Positions 5,422-37,691 of a stretch of 64,000 nt of DNA are shown here, one piece after another. Each line of letters starts with the position of its first letter. The stretch's first letter is position 1. The notes under the pieces are model-generated. The model saw only the letters and a list, made by a program, of their open reading frames with translations. It was not told the DNA's origin and made no database searches. The stretch spans positions 1 through 64,000 of the forward strand of contig JALSLV010000047.1 in NCBI GenBank assembly GCA_026988115.1. Reading direction: 5' to 3'. The position numbers and the translations under genes were made by a program. This stretch comes from Lysobacterales bacterium (lineage in GTDB: Bacteria; Pseudomonadota; Gammaproteobacteria; Xanthomonadales; Marinicellaceae).

Positions 5422-7080
5422 TTTTTTATATTTAATTCGATGTGGTTGCGGAATGTCACCAAAACGGCGTTTATAATCTTGTTCGTATTCGCTGTAATTG
5501 CCTTCAAAAAATTCCACATGAGACTCGTCTTCAAAAGCCAAAATGTGTGTGGCAATTCTATCCAAAAACCATCTATCATGCGAGATGACCATAACAGAAC
5601 CTGCAAAGTTTAATACCGCTTCTTCTAAGGCGCGTAAAGTTTCAACATCTAAATCATTGGTTGGCTCATCAAGTAATAACACATTGCCACCTGATTTTAA
5701 CACTTTGGCCAGTTGCAAACGGTTGCGTTCACCACCGGATAAATTCTTTACAAGTTTTTGTTGGTCGGCACCTTTGAAATTAAAGCGGGATAACCACGCA
5801 CGTGCTGGCACGGTATAATTGCCTATTTTTAATACTTCCTGACCATCGCCAATGTCTTCAAATAAGGGTTTGTCATTGTTGAGGTCTTCGCGAGATTGTT
5901 TGACATAAGCCAGTTCAACGGTTTCACCGATTTCAACGGTACCTTTGTCGGGTTCTTCATTGCCATCAATCATGTTAAATAGAGTTGATTTACCTGCTCC
6001 GTTTGGACCTATGATGCCAACGATAGCCCCTTGTGGCACTTTAAAACTTAAATCATCAATTAAGTATTTATCGCCAAAGGCTTTGGAGACATTTTTAAAT
6101 TCAATAACTTTTTCGCCCAAACGAGGACCTTGAGGTATAAAAATTTGGTTAGTTTCATTGCGCGATTGAAACTCTTTGGATTGCAGTTCTTCAAAACGTT
6201 TGAGGCGAGCTTTAGATTTGGTGCGTTTGCCTTTTGCATTGGAGCGAACCCACTCCAATTCGCTTTGTATGACTTTCATGTGCGATGCCTCAGAGCGTTT
6301 TTCTTGAATCAAACGGGCTTCTTTTTGTTCCAGCCACGAAGAATAATTGCCTTCATAAGGAATGCCGTGACCTCTATCTAATTCCAAAATCCATTCGGCG
6401 ACATTATCAAGGAAGTATCTATCATGCGTAACTGCCACAATGGTGCCTGTAAAGTCTGCCAAATAGCGTTCAAGCCATGCAACGGTTTCGGCATCCAAGT
6501 GATTGGTTGGCTCATCAAGCAACAACATATCAGGAGCAGAAAGCAATAGCTTACACAAAGCCACACGCCTTTTTTCTCCACCTGATAATACCTTTACAGG
6601 CTTATCCCACTCAGGTAGACGTAAAGCATCGGCAGCACGTTCTAGTGTTCTATCCAATTCCCAACCATTTGCCGCTTCAATTTTATCTTGTAATTCGGCT
6701 TGTTTTGCGAGTAAGTCTGTCATTTCATCATCGGACATTTCTTCGCCAAATTTTTCTGAAATGGCATCGAATTCATCCAGCATGCCTTTAACTTCACTCA
6801 TACCAAGTTCGACATTTTCACGCACTGTTTTTTCTTCATCCAATTCAGGCTCTTGTGATAAATAACCAATTTTAATGCCAGGTTGTGGACGTGATTCTCC
6901 GTTAAACTCTTTGTCAATGCCTGCCATAATGCGAAGAACGGTGGACTTTCCTGAACCATTCAAACCTAAAACGCCAATCTTGGCACCTGGGAAAAAACTA
7001 ATAGAAATGTCTTTGATGATTTCTTTATTTGGAGGAACCGTCTTACTCACACGGTTCATGGTGTAAATGTATTGTGCCAT
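5413..7080 (-). CDS. ettA: Energy-dependent translational throttle protein EttA (ABC-F)
   Basis: The 555-residue product is an ABC-F protein: two ATP-binding cassettes and no membrane domain. Cassette 1 has Walker A GLNGSGKST and signature LSGGEKRR; cassette 2 has GPNGAGKST and LSGGERNR; both have LLLLDEPTN. The N terminus MAQYIYTMNRVSKTVPP is characteristic of EttA. Between the cassettes lies the charged linker (about residues 245-300) that in EttA contacts P-site tRNA. In E. coli EttA binds the ribosomal E site and gates the first peptide bond according to the ATP/ADP ratio. It is a single-gene unit, convergent with the glycan operon. Confidence 0.96.
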   Translation of the reverse strand: MAQYIYTMNRVSKTVPPNKEIIKDISISFFPGAKIGVLGLNGSGKSTVLRIMAGIDKEFNGESRPQPGIKIGYLSQEPELDEEKTVRENVELGMSEVKGMLDEFDAISEKFGEEMSDDEMTDLLAKQAELQDKIEAANGWELDRTLERAADALRLPEWDKPVKVLSGGEKRRVALCKLLLSAPDMLLLDEPTNHLDAETVAWLERYLADFTGTIVAVTHDRYFLDNVAEWILELDRGHGIPYEGNYSSWLEQKEARLIQEKRSEASHMKVIQSELEWVRSNAKGKRTKSKARLKRFEELQSKEFQSRNETNQIFIPQGPRLGEKVIEFKNVSKAFGDKYLIDDLSFKVPQGAIVGIIGPNGAGKSTLFNMIDGNEEPDKGTVEIGETVELAYVKQSREDLNNDKPLFEDIGDGQEVLKIGNYTVPARAWLSRFNFKGADQQKLVKNLSGGERNRLQLAKVLKSGGNVLLLDEPTNDLDVETLRALEEAVLNFAGSVMVISHDRWFLDRIATHILAFEDESHVEFFEGNYSEYEQDYKRRFGDIPQPHRIKYKKLT

Positions 7081-34175: not shown

Positions 34176-35303
34176 ATGAATACAAATAAATCTAAAATCG
34201 CGTTAATGTTGCCAGGTGGAGGAGCGCGTGGTTCTTACCAAGTGGGTGTTATGAAAGGCATTATGGAATTGTTACCTAAAAATAAAGCACCTTTTCCTAT
34301 CATAACAGGGACTTCTGCCGGTGCGATTAATGCGGTCGTCTTGGCAAGTTATGCCGATGATATAAAATACGGTACACATCGGCTTGAAAAGTTTTGGATG
34401 ACTTTGCATTGCCCAGATGTTTATCGAACCGATGGTTGGATGATTGCTAAAACGATGGCAAAAGTATTGGGTTCCATGTTTTTTGGTAAATTGGGAGTAA
34501 AAGCACCACGCTCACTATTGGATAATGAGCCATTGTTTCATTACTTATCAAAAACCATGCATTTATCACAAATACAGGAATGTATAGAGAAGGGAAGTTT
34601 GGATGGGTTGGCTATTACGGCATCCTCTTATGATACTTCAGTTGCTAAGAGTTTTTTTCAAGCAAAAGAATCTATAAATGCATGGAACCGAACCCGAAGA
34701 ATTGGACTTCCGCAGAAAATTGGGGTTGAGCATATTTTAGCCTCTGCGGCTTTGCCCTTTTTGTTTCCAGCACAACTCATTGGAAAAGAATACTATGGCG
34801 ATGGCGGCTTGCGCATGAGTGCGCCGTTATCTCCTGCCATACATTTGGGAGCAGAAAAAATTCTAGTCATTGGTACACGCGATGAGAGTCCGATACCAAC
34901 TCCTACTGAAGTTCCTGAATACCCTTCCATGGGAGAGTTGGGTGGTTATATGTTGGATACAATATTCATGGATACCTTGATGGCGGACTTATCTCGACTA
35001 AGGCGAATTAATCGAACCCTTGATTTAATTAGTGAGGAAAATAGAAGCAAAACTCAACTGCAAAAACTAGAGACTTTAATCATTAAACCCAGTGTTGATG
35101 TACGAGAAATCACTAAGGAGCATGCCAAAGACATACCTGCACCAGTTCGACGATTACTCAAAGCAATAGGCGGTTGGGGAAAAGAGTGGCGCATGCCCAG
35201 TTACCTTCTTTTTGAACCAGGATATACCAAGGCATTGATAGAACTGGGTTATCAAGATGCGTTGGCTCAAGAAGAAAAAATTAAAGCGTTTATGGCGACT
35301 TAG
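34176..35303 (+). CDS. Patatin-like phospholipase
   Basis: The 375-residue product carries all patatin elements: oxyanion motif GGGARGSYQVGV near the N terminus, nucleophile elbow GTSAGAINA (Ser about 47), and the catalytic Asp in YGDGGLR (about 209). The C-terminal region matches the DUF3336-less bacterial patatins; no signal peptide is present. It probably hydrolyses ester bonds of phospholipids or storage lipids on the cytoplasmic side. Transcribed away from the GDPD-like gene, from a 58-base shared upstream region. No downstream gene on the same strand for 3.6 kb. Confidence 0.92.
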   Translation: MNTNKSKIALMLPGGGARGSYQVGVMKGIMELLPKNKAPFPIITGTSAGAINAVVLASYADDIKYGTHRLEKFWMTLHCPDVYRTDGWMIAKTMAKVLGSMFFGKLGVKAPRSLLDNEPLFHYLSKTMHLSQIQECIEKGSLDGLAITASSYDTSVAKSFFQAKESINAWNRTRRIGLPQKIGVEHILASAALPFLFPAQLIGKEYYGDGGLRMSAPLSPAIHLGAEKILVIGTRDESPIPTPTEVPEYPSMGELGGYMLDTIFMDTLMADLSRLRRINRTLDLISEENRSKTQLQKLETLIIKPSVDVREITKEHAKDIPAPVRRLLKAIGGWGKEWRMPSYLLFEPGYTKALIELGYQDALAQEEKIKAFMAT

Positions 35304-35391
35304 GTTTGTGTGAGAATAAGGCACTTTAGCCCTAACTCTTGATGGAATTTCTATTAAAATCCTGTAAGTTGTTGTTTTATAATAGCTAAAC

Positions 35392-35621
35392 GACTTATCC
35401 ACAGAGCCTGTGGATAAGTCTGTGAGTAACTGCACAAAAGTATTCTATTTAACGAGTATCTATAAGGATTTTTATCATTTTGGTTAATTATTAACCAGTC
35501 TATAAAAACACAATAAATTCAATGAGTTAGATGTGAGAGTCGCTTTTTTATGCACAGAGTCAGAAAAAAAATAATGAAAAAATCTCTTGACAGCTCTTCG
35601 TGTGCATAAATCAATAACTTA
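35392..35621. other. DnaA-box cluster with IHF-type site (origin-like region)
   Basis: Four perfect DnaA boxes (TTATNCACA) lie in two head-to-head pairs. Pair one is TTATCCACA (35395-35403) and TGTGGATAA (35409-35417), inside a 13-bp inverted repeat with loop AGC. Pair two is TTATGCACA (35548-35556) and TGTGCATAA (35601-35609). A 13-base match to the IHF consensus WATCAANNNNTTR follows at 35609-35621. The spacer is very AT-rich, as expected for an unwinding element. No GATC occurs in this stretch. No dnaA or mnmG is nearby, so whether it is oriC, a DnaA-titrating site, or something else is open. Confidence 0.6.
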
Positions 35622-35770
35622 GCGTAGTAATCTTAGGATTTAAATGAAATAACAAGGCTATGTCACGATTTAAATAAAAAGAGAAAAATGGATTTTACAC
35701 GAAACAAAAAAGGCGACAATAATCCACCAAATAATAAATTATCCATGAACTTATTTCTCAATGCCAAACT

Positions 35771-35927
35771 AAAACCAACGGTGCCTCTAAAATAATATGA
35801 TTTAGCGGGGTTCGGACTTTAGTCCGTCTTCAAAACAACGGGACTAAAGTCCCTGCCCCAGGTGGTCATTGGCATCAGGGTGAAGCCCTTAAACTAGAAT
35901 TCATCGGCAAGTGGGATTTATCCCACT
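35771..35927. repeat. REP-like composite repeat, intact copy
   Basis: The unit holds a hairpin with 12-bp arms (GGACTTTAGTCC pairing with GGACTAAAGTCC) and a second hairpin AGTGGGA-TTTA-TCCCACT. A second copy of the whole unit begins 206 bases downstream. Nothing coding is seen. Confidence 0.8.
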
Positions 35928-35976
35928 CAAAACTCAATTAAAGACCTAACCACTGATTACTTAATTGAAAGAAAAT

Positions 35977-36361
35977 AAAACCAACAGTGCCTCTAAAATA
36001 ATATGAGTTAGCGGGGTTCGGACTTTAGTCCGTCTTCAAAACAACGGGACTAAAGAGACTATGAAAGTATTCTGATGACGAGTAAAAATGGCATAAATTT
36101 CGCTACTATGCGTTGAAAAACTTGGAATTAGCTAGCTAGTCACTGCGTTTTCCGTCTTTATTAGCAAATTTTCTGCTCATTTTTATGCGTATCGTCCTGA
36201 TACTTACCGCTTCGCGGCTTGCGTGAAAAAACACTCCATGTGTTTTTTTCTTTCGCCCCATAATACTTTCACAGTCTCTAAAGTCCCTGCCCCAGGTGGT
36301 CATTGGCAACAGGGTAGAGTCCTTAAACTAGCATTCATCGGTAAGTGGGATAAATCCCACT
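35977..36361. repeat. REP-like composite repeat, copy interrupted by a MITE
   Basis: Same unit as at 35771, starting AAAACCAACAGTGCCTCTAA, but its second arm GGACTAAAG is split by the element at 36056-36277 before continuing with AAAGTCCCTGCCCCAGG. The terminal hairpin is AGTGGGA-TAAA-TCCCACT (36344-36361). Confidence 0.8.
36056..36277. mobile_element. 222-bp MITE inserted in the REP-like repeat, with target duplication
   Basis: The ends are AGACTATGAAAGTATT (36056-36071) and AATACTTTCACAGTCT (36262-36277), inverted with one mismatch. They are flanked by CTAAAG on both sides (36050-36055 and 36278-36283), which occurs once in the intact sister copy. The exact boundary is ambiguous: inverted repeats of 16, 17 or 18 bases would give target duplications of 6, 4 or 2. 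The interior has no transposase; a predicted ORF there is an accident. Confidence 0.85.
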
Positions 36362-36458
36362 TATCAATAAATGCAAATCGATTGGGTTTTCGTAAAAAAT
36401 GGTGTTCGCAAGGAGCTCCACTGTATTTTTCCTTGAGGGCTTTGCGTTCCGTGTTTCT

Positions 36459-37595
36459 TTATGCTCTTTGCGATAGTGGTGTCACTTTTCTTGGGCCAAC
36501 TCCAACGTAATCAGCATTGGGTCGAATAATGCGGTTATTGGCGCGTTGTTCCATCACATGAGCAGCCCAACCTGTGATTCGTGAACAGACAAATATCGGG
36601 GTGAACAGTTTGGTTGGGATGTTCATAAAATGATAAGCCGATGCGTGGAAAAAATCGGCATTCGGAAAAATGTGTTTTTCATCCCAGAGTTTTTTCTCAA
36701 CCGCGCAACTAACATCATACAGACATTCATCACCGACATCTTCGGACAATTCTTTTGACCAGCGTTTGATTAAAGCATTTCTGGGATCACTTTCGGTGTA
36801 AACTGCGTGCCCAAATCCCATGATTAATTGTTTGGTTGCCAACATATCATCGATTCCTGCAATGGCTTCATCAACCGATTTCCATTGCGACAACATTGCC
36901 ATGGCTGCTTCGTTAGCCCCACCATGAAGTGGTCCGCGTAGTGCGCCAACGGCTGCAGTTACGCACGAATACATATCCGATAAAGTCGAGGCAACAACGC
37001 GTCCTGTAAAAGTTGAAGCATTAAACTCGTGTTCGGCATACAAGATTAAGGACACGTCCATCACACGTGCATGTAAAGCATTGGGTTTTTCGCCACGTAG
37101 CATATGCAAAAAGTGTCCACCGATTGAATCATCATCCAAAGCCGTTTCGATACGCACACCTTCATGGGTAAACTTATACCAATAACAGATAATGGATGGA
37201 AAAGCACCAAGTAACCTATCGGCGGCATCTTGTTGCTGTGAAAAATCCATTTCAGGCTCTAAGTTACCCAACATAGAGCAACCTGTGCGCATGACATCCA
37301 TTGGGTGCGTGTCTTTTGGAATCATCTCCAAAGTGGCTTTTAAGGCTTCGGGTAAATCACGGTTAGCCATGATTTTGGCTGAATATTCTTGCAGTTGTGT
37401 TTGGTTTGGCAATTCACCATGAAAAATGAGGTATGCTGTTTCATAAAAGGTGGTGTTTTCGGCTAAATCTGCCACATCGTAACCGTTGTAAGTTAAGCCT
37501 GAGCCTGAAACGCCCACGGTGCATAATTTTGTTTCGCCAGCTGATTGTCCACGAAGACCTGCTCCGCCTGCTTTCTTTGCTTTTTGATCTGCCAT
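36459..37595 (-). CDS. prpC: 2-methylcitrate synthase PrpC
   Basis: The 378-residue enzyme condenses propionyl-CoA with oxaloacetate. It is a citrate-synthase fold protein with LCTVGVSGSGLTYNGYDVAD near the N terminus, the active-site His regions GPLHGGANEAAM and GFGHAVYTESDPRN, and the Asp/Arg region NADFFHASAYHFMNIPTKLF followed by SRITGWAAHVMEQ. Short length and the HGGANE form fit PrpC rather than GltA. ATG 37595 is preferred; upstream in-frame residues lack conservation. It lies downstream of prpB on the same strand, 96 bases apart. prpD or acnD are not in view. Confidence 0.92.
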   Translation of the reverse strand: MADQKAKKAGGAGLRGQSAGETKLCTVGVSGSGLTYNGYDVADLAENTTFYETAYLIFHGELPNQTQLQEYSAKIMANRDLPEALKATLEMIPKDTHPMDVMRTGCSMLGNLEPEMDFSQQQDAADRLLGAFPSIICYWYKFTHEGVRIETALDDDSIGGHFLHMLRGEKPNALHARVMDVSLILYAEHEFNASTFTGRVVASTLSDMYSCVTAAVGALRGPLHGGANEAAMAMLSQWKSVDEAIAGIDDMLATKQLIMGFGHAVYTESDPRNALIKRWSKELSEDVGDECLYDVSCAVEKKLWDEKHIFPNADFFHASAYHFMNIPTKLFTPIFVCSRITGWAAHVMEQRANNRIIRPNADYVGVGPRKVTPLSQRA

Positions 37596-37691
37596 AATGT
37601 TTTCTCTTATAATTTGTAGGATAGGCACTGCCCATCAGTTCTTATTAAATAGTTGTTAGTTGTTCCATGATGGGTCAGTCCCATCTTAGGA

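Follow-up and report, generated by a model that had tools for sequence, protein, structure and literature searches.

A probable DARS2-like site between the patatin and prpC genes of a Lysobacterales (Marinicellaceae) genome, and the spread of its three-box core among Gammaproteobacteria

What is a tight cluster of DnaA boxes doing between a patatin-like gene and a citrate-synthase-family gene, far from dnaA? The stretch of DNA analysed here (hereafter the window: 64,000 nucleotides, i.e., bases 1-64000 of the 112,340-base contig C47) belongs to the draft genome (3.51 Mb, 121 contigs) of a Lysobacterales bacterium of the Marinicellaceae. An initial annotation, made from the letters of the window, had pointed to four perfect DnaA boxes in the 230-bp stretch 35392-35621, and had offered three readings of them, namely a displaced oriC, a datA-like sink for DnaA and a secondary origin. 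By analogy with the well-studied sites of Escherichia coli, we propose that this element is probably a DARS2-like site, controlled by IHF and Fis, that exchanges ADP for ATP on DnaA.

The three-box core and its flanking sites

The four exact TTATNCACA boxes are indeed present within 215 bases, starting at 35395 (+), 35409 (-), 35548 (+) and 35601 (-). The window as a whole holds eight such sites for a mean of 4.37 in dinucleotide shuffles (5/100 shuffles reach eight), a mean that agrees with the earlier estimate of one box per about 15 kb. The clustering is the unusual part: by our own Poisson estimate, the chance of finding four exact boxes within 215 bp anywhere in the window is about 1e-6 to 1e-5, so that the cluster had rightly been called unlikely by chance. 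The initial annotation had missed a fifth box, which completes a three-box core. Box I (TTATCCACA, 35395-35403, + strand) and box II (TTATCCACA, 35409-35417, - strand), both exact matches to TTATNCACA, stand head-to-head 5 bp apart, and box III (TTACTCACA, 35421-35429, - strand, one mismatch) follows 3 bp from box II and in the same direction, to form a triple that reads forward, 5 bp, reverse, 3 bp, reverse (the 5/3 triple).

The DNA on the box III side carries several other candidate sites. The nearest is a palindromic 15-mer, GGTTAATTATTAACC, located 52 bp beyond box III (35482-35496), which fits the Fis consensus GnnYAnnnnnTRnnC found in the accessible text of PMC4245941. It is followed by an IHF-like site read by eye (ATTCAATGAGTTA, 35517-35529, + strand, one mismatch) and by two accessory DnaA boxes with the exact sequence TTATGCACA, at 35548-35556 (+ strand; +118 from the core end) and 35601-35609 (- strand; +171). 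An exact match to the IHF consensus (WATCARNNNNTTR), namely AATCAATAACTTA, abuts the last box at 35609-35621 (+ strand), at the edge of the cluster where it had been announced; such matches number 13 in the whole window for 12.1 expected, so that a single one means little. Left of the core, the motif TAAGTTGTTGTTTTA (35365-35379, + strand), for which we know of no binder, recurs largely unchanged around -30 in 18 elements of the genus.

The element occupies a convergent gap, between the 3' ends of the patatin-like gene (34176-35303, + strand, PF01734) and of the prpC-like gene of the citrate synthase family (36459-37628, - strand, PF00285; the name prpC is that of the initial annotation), and is upstream of neither. 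Between the element and prpC, the region 35766-36372 contains repeated blocks (84 nt twice and 95 nt twice) that look like a small interspersed repeat, and their palindrome GGACTTTAGTCC occurs nowhere else in the window with up to one mismatch. An RNA element was rejected, the window having neither an Rfam match at the gathering score nor a tRNA.

When searched with up to three mismatches, the genome contains exactly two copies of the triple, both on C47 and 32 kb apart, and zero matches to the reversed-pattern control. The second core (C47:67648-67682, reverse strand, no mismatch) lies upstream of priA and, together with further boxes, makes up a second DARS-type element (C47:67470-67682, i.e., 5470-5682 of the stretch L004). 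Upon alignment, the two copies have in common the TAAGTTGTTGTTTTA motif (identical in both), the core, an IHF-like TCAATnAGTTA and, some 50 bp past box III, the GGTTAAnnnTTAACC palindrome; in both of them the Fis-type palindrome and the IHF-type sites stand on the box III side, at fixed distances. An exact IHF consensus occurs at +86/87 in the priA copy as well as in the stretches L046, L054 and L056.

Conservation of the element and its neighbours

Nearly all genomes of the family (31/33) possess at least one core (from one to four), and the control pattern gave zero matches in 33/33; a genome of completeness 100 (G001) has no core, which counts against the proposal. We analysed 43 family cores out of 59 listed places (41 from relatives and our own two). 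Within the 200 bp to the right of box III, the Fis consensus was found at 40/43 of them (shuffle mean 4.8) and the IHF consensus at 31/43 (shuffle mean 1.8), it being understood that the shuffles treat related sequences as independent and that some elements of the genus are near-identical. On the left flank, Fis matches are at the shuffle level (4/43), and the IHF consensus is somewhat enriched (11/43 vs 1.5), another point against the proposal. In the genus, the Fis consensus starts 51/52 bp beyond the core in 18/18 elements, with the palindrome in 17/18, and an IHF consensus lies within 200 bp in 13/18. The TTAANNNTTAA palindrome, present at 34/43 family cores and in 4/61 right flanks of the class sample (shuffle mean 1.6; 6/100 shuffles reach four), is a family trait only.

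The idea that the element always resides at the patatin locus was rejected. The closest named relatives of the patatin belong to metagenome-assembled genomes labelled Alcanivoracaceae and Lysobacterales and, further off, to Marinicella, and a core accompanies 5/24 of the named patatin loci (in two others the DNA ends within 150 bp of the gene); the locus L089 has a patatin that is 84% identical and no core. Where the core does occur beside the patatin gene, 5/5 relatives have the Fis consensus at +52 and an exact last box at +170/171, 3/5 have an exact +118 box, and the IHF consensus stands at +178/179 in 4/5 and at +87 in the fifth. In one of them (L088), TTATGCACA is replaced by TTATACACA in both accessory boxes, a change that affects the free N position alone.

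The core extends well beyond the family. With up to three mismatches, it was found in 294/369 genomes of the class sample, for two matches to the reversed pattern; 75/369 genomes have no core at that threshold, which also counts against the proposal. When the spacing was shifted to 6/2, only 3/114 genomes matched, once each and with three mismatches, as compared to 92/114 of the same genomes with the true spacing; on these two controls, we rejected chance as an explanation. The flanks and neighbours of the class cores were studied in 60 stretches (63 cores), hand-chosen for spread among the matches listed. With 61 of these cores, two being excluded as too near a contig end, the right flank shows the Fis consensus in 34/61 cases (shuffle mean 7.6) and the IHF consensus in 17/61 (shuffle mean 2.1). 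Cores avoid coding sequence: 1/43 in the family and 2/63 in the class lie inside an open reading frame of at least 150 amino acids, as compared to 77% and 82% of the control positions, respectively.

Two genes of replication recur beside the core. First, a priA-like open reading frame is located within 1.5 kb of 31/106 cores (16/43 in the family and 15/63 in the class), and 14 of the 15 class cases are directly adjacent, the other one being weak (L117, 1.2 kb away); the cores that have no priA-like neighbour have varied neighbours. When 30 class genomes were picked regardless of their cores, 29 had a priA over the family cut-off, and six of these priA stretches carried a core directly upstream of the gene, in a single orientation; none of the stretches had a core elsewhere. 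Second, polA is also a repeated neighbour of DARS-type cores, its 3' end adjoining the core in five sister-genus stretches (L070, L072, L074, L081 and L085); in the first four of these, the 3' end of a TauE-family gene stands on the opposite side of the core. In the class stretches L144, L161 and L167, the polA open reading frame begins 0.8-1.3 kb from the core. One member of each of these groups was checked against Pfam.

Comparison with DARS1, DARS2 and datA

We applied the same scan to the E. coli K-12 sequence (NC_000913). It returned a 5/3 triple with two mismatches between bioD and uvrB, and another one with three mismatches between rppH and ygdT, upstream of mutH; from their known places, and from their match to the published description, we take these triples to be DARS1 and DARS2, respectively. 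No triple was found with up to five mismatches in the oriC, dnaA and datA regions of E. coli, datA being presumably located in the glyV-queG region. The founding paper on DARS is reportedly that of Fujimitsu et al. in 2009.

DARS1 and DARS2 have a common, identically spaced core, whose box I runs counter to boxes II and III (PMC5742627), and the accessible text of that review regards the head-to-head contact of DnaA on boxes I/II as a prominent DARS feature. The core in the window has these three boxes, with box I opposite to II and III, and the DARS1/DARS2 spacing. Like DARS, it is intergenic and away from the origin, being in the patatin/prpC gap with dnaA and parS on another contig. Box III is imperfect here, with one mismatch, and it is imperfect in E. 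coli too. Boxes I and II are closely alike in DARS1 (TTATCCACt-attcC-TGTGGATAA) and in the window (TTATCCACA-gagcC-TGTGGATAA). Beyond the core geometry DARS1 differs, having no IHF consensus in the 300 bp to its right and a sole Fis consensus there at +228; as far as the accessible text of PMC5742627 goes, DARS1 is active in vitro without IHF or Fis.

The resemblance is greater with DARS2, whose right arm must be occupied by IHF and Fis (accessible text of PMC4245941). Both elements are intergenic and have the three-box core with its 5 bp and 3 bp spacing and its orientation, Fis- and IHF-type sites beyond box III (predicted here from consensus matches) and more DnaA boxes further right. They differ in four respects. 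First, the Fis palindrome is at +52 here, whereas the nearest Fis consensus is at +110 in E. coli. Second, the order is core, Fis (+52), IHF (+87 and +179) here, whereas the available passages of PMC4245941 place the IHF sites of E. coli DARS2 between the core and the Fis sites. Third, the window element has the extra left motif TAAGTTGTTGTTTTA. Fourth, it lies between patatin and prpC (and its second copy beside priA), not between rppH and ygdT near mutH. From the Fis-then-IHF order, we regard it as a variant of DARS2 rather than as an orthologue. It is worth noting that, in the 300 bp to the right of the E. coli DARS2 core, the known IHF sites all escape the IHF pattern used here, so that matches to a consensus are unreliable for locating IHF sites.

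The genome encodes the proteins that such a site would use. Its DnaA is 49% identical to that of E. coli and has kept D269, R285 and L290. A Fis-like gene (82 amino acids, PF02954) lies in a cluster with prmA (PF06325), the E. coli order being prmA, dusB, fis; an IhfA gene is present, and a second DnaA-domain protein, of 229 amino acids and Hda-like, is probably Hda. By analogy with the E. coli work, we propose that ADP-DnaA would bind to boxes I, II and III, and that the head-to-head I/II pair together with box III would force DnaA into an oligomer that lets go of ADP. The right arm, which also holds the two other DnaA boxes, would be bent by Fis (at the palindrome 52 bp past box III) and by IHF (near +87/+179), and the exchange would thereby be switched on. 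The resulting apo-DnaA would take up ATP, so as to provide more ATP-DnaA for initiation at oriC, which would lie elsewhere, near dnaA. Binding, ADP release, control by IHF and Fis and the effect on initiation are thus modelled on E. coli; what the DNA itself shows is the arrangement of the boxes, the presence of two copies, the fixed Fis/IHF-consensus positions and the conservation.

Two other ways of acting on DnaA deserve attention. A datA-like site, where DnaA-bound ATP would be hydrolysed in an IHF-dependent manner, seems unlikely. In E. coli, datA has a set arrangement of essential boxes (2, 3 and 7) and an IHF site. The element does resemble datA, which acts via DnaA boxes and IHF (accessible text of PMC5742627), as an assembly of several DnaA boxes with IHF consensus sites, probably under IHF control, away from oriC, and the general idea of the initial annotation, a DnaA-controlling site remote from the origin, holds. 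Its geometry, however, is that of DARS, the effect of which on DnaA is opposite to that of datA: the conserved 5/3 triple, with its head-to-head pair, is the mark of DARS and is missing from the datA region of E. coli, and a Fis palindrome at a fixed distance is a DARS2-like feature, a Fis requirement of datA not being stated in the texts consulted here. We also attribute a low probability to a passive sink that would titrate DnaA without changing its nucleotide state. High-affinity boxes should bind DnaA regardless, and chromosomal titration has been argued for in E. coli (accessible text of PMC12371093), but a sink needs neither the 5/3 spacing, kept in 92/114 genomes vs three with the shifted spacing, nor a Fis consensus at a fixed distance on one side only.

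The origin of the chromosome and the spread of the core

That the element is a displaced or secondary chromosomal origin, with an oriC-like unwinding site, is very improbable, in spite of its strong DnaA-box cluster, AT-rich DNA and IHF consensus, all of which resemble oriC. Several lines of evidence stand against it. First, replication origins sit at GC-skew reversals, and the skew on C47 is positive in 26/29 four-kb bins, the ones that flank each of the two clusters among them; the cumulative skew, which had been put forward as a check that could support oriC, climbs along nearly all of C47 with no reversal at either cluster. On contig C1, the skew increases from close to zero to +0.14 a short way downstream of dnaA. 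Second, the dnaA, dnaN, recF and gyrB genes are on C1 (dnaN, recF and gyrB, unlike dnaA, being named there by reading of the proteins) and mnmG is on C97, so that, as first noted, neither dnaA, dnaN nor mnmG is near the element. Third, three exact parS sites (TGTTTCACGTGAAACA) lie within recF and gyrB, beside dnaA, and mark C1 as the origin region, no further parS being found in the genome with up to one mismatch. The window element thus shows neither a skew reversal nor origin-linked genes or parS nearby. Fourth, the genome has two such elements, 32 kb apart, and the E. coli oriC region is without the triple. Fifth, in the relatives too the element persists outside the origin region, and genomes with two or more copies are common: none of dnaA, dnaN, recF, gyrB, yidC, mnmE and mnmG was found within 1.5 kb around the 43 family cores, and none of dnaA, yidC, rnpA, mnmE, mnmG, rsmG and mioC was matched within 2 kb around the 63 class cores, only one of which adjoins gyrB/recF/dnaN. 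This one class core (L129, three mismatches) separates gyrB from recF, close to a gene cluster of the origin type, and counts against the DARS reading.

We therefore rejected the displaced oriC on GC skew, parS and the position of dnaA, and the secondary origin fared no better; overall, the initial interpretation is partly supported. The dnaA locus (6500-8750 of L003, on C1) has only one exact box, between dnaA and dnaN, a caveat in rejecting the origin reading, since the precise position of oriC is not fixed by it. The 4.2-kb mnmG stretch (L007) has one exact box and no triple with up to five mismatches, and an mnmG-linked origin was rejected on these grounds.

A DnaA-controlled promoter element for the neighbouring genes is most unlikely, and was rejected. 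The second copy is directly upstream of priA, in a single orientation wherever seen (DnaA control of priA is possible there), and a promoter-like match is found immediately before the window core, at 35354-35383. But the region has five such matches, close to the number given by shuffles (mean 3.2); the window copy has a 3' end on either side, those of patatin and prpC, as do four second copies in the sister genus (TauE-family gene and polA); and the priA-like neighbour is found at 31/106 cores only, the neighbours of the others being varied.

Returning to the DARS2-like reading, the accessible text of PMC4245941 (2014) describes conservation of the DARS2 core as specific to those gammaproteobacteria that are related to E. 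coli, and that of the review PMC5742627 assigns DARS to E. coli-proximal beta- or gammaproteobacteria. It is thus surprising that the core occurs far beyond the close relatives of E. coli, and often beside priA. Among the papers listed on DARS (including DARS outside enterics and near priA) and on Marinicella, none announces a priA-linked or Marinicella DARS in its title or the opening of its abstract. With evenly balanced confidence, we suggest that the DARS core could be an ancient control element, near-universal in Gammaproteobacteria and present in some other proteobacterial groups, usually in few copies. Its ancestral copy would be the one upstream of priA, with movable second copies in convergent gaps (patatin/prpC; TauE-family gene/polA), and E. 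coli DARS1 and DARS2 would be relocated descendants. If so, the DNA-driven recharging of DnaA would be a mechanism common to a large group of bacteria, instead of one restricted to E. coli and the species close to it. The rigid core found in 294/369 class genomes and, in the family, the one-sided arm of Fis/IHF consensus sites provide a sequence signature, which makes this generality testable in culturable, non-enteric species, and the repeated priA and polA neighbours tie the element to replication genes.

A sample of the phylum gave matches in 62/120 genomes, i.e., 24/30 inside the class and 38/90 outside it. The matches outside the class come from six families only, one of which supplies 23 of them. 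Some of these outside genomes are peculiar in the number or arrangement of their cores: the number reaches nine in G432, and G436, G462 and G483 each have two cores that overlap on opposite strands.
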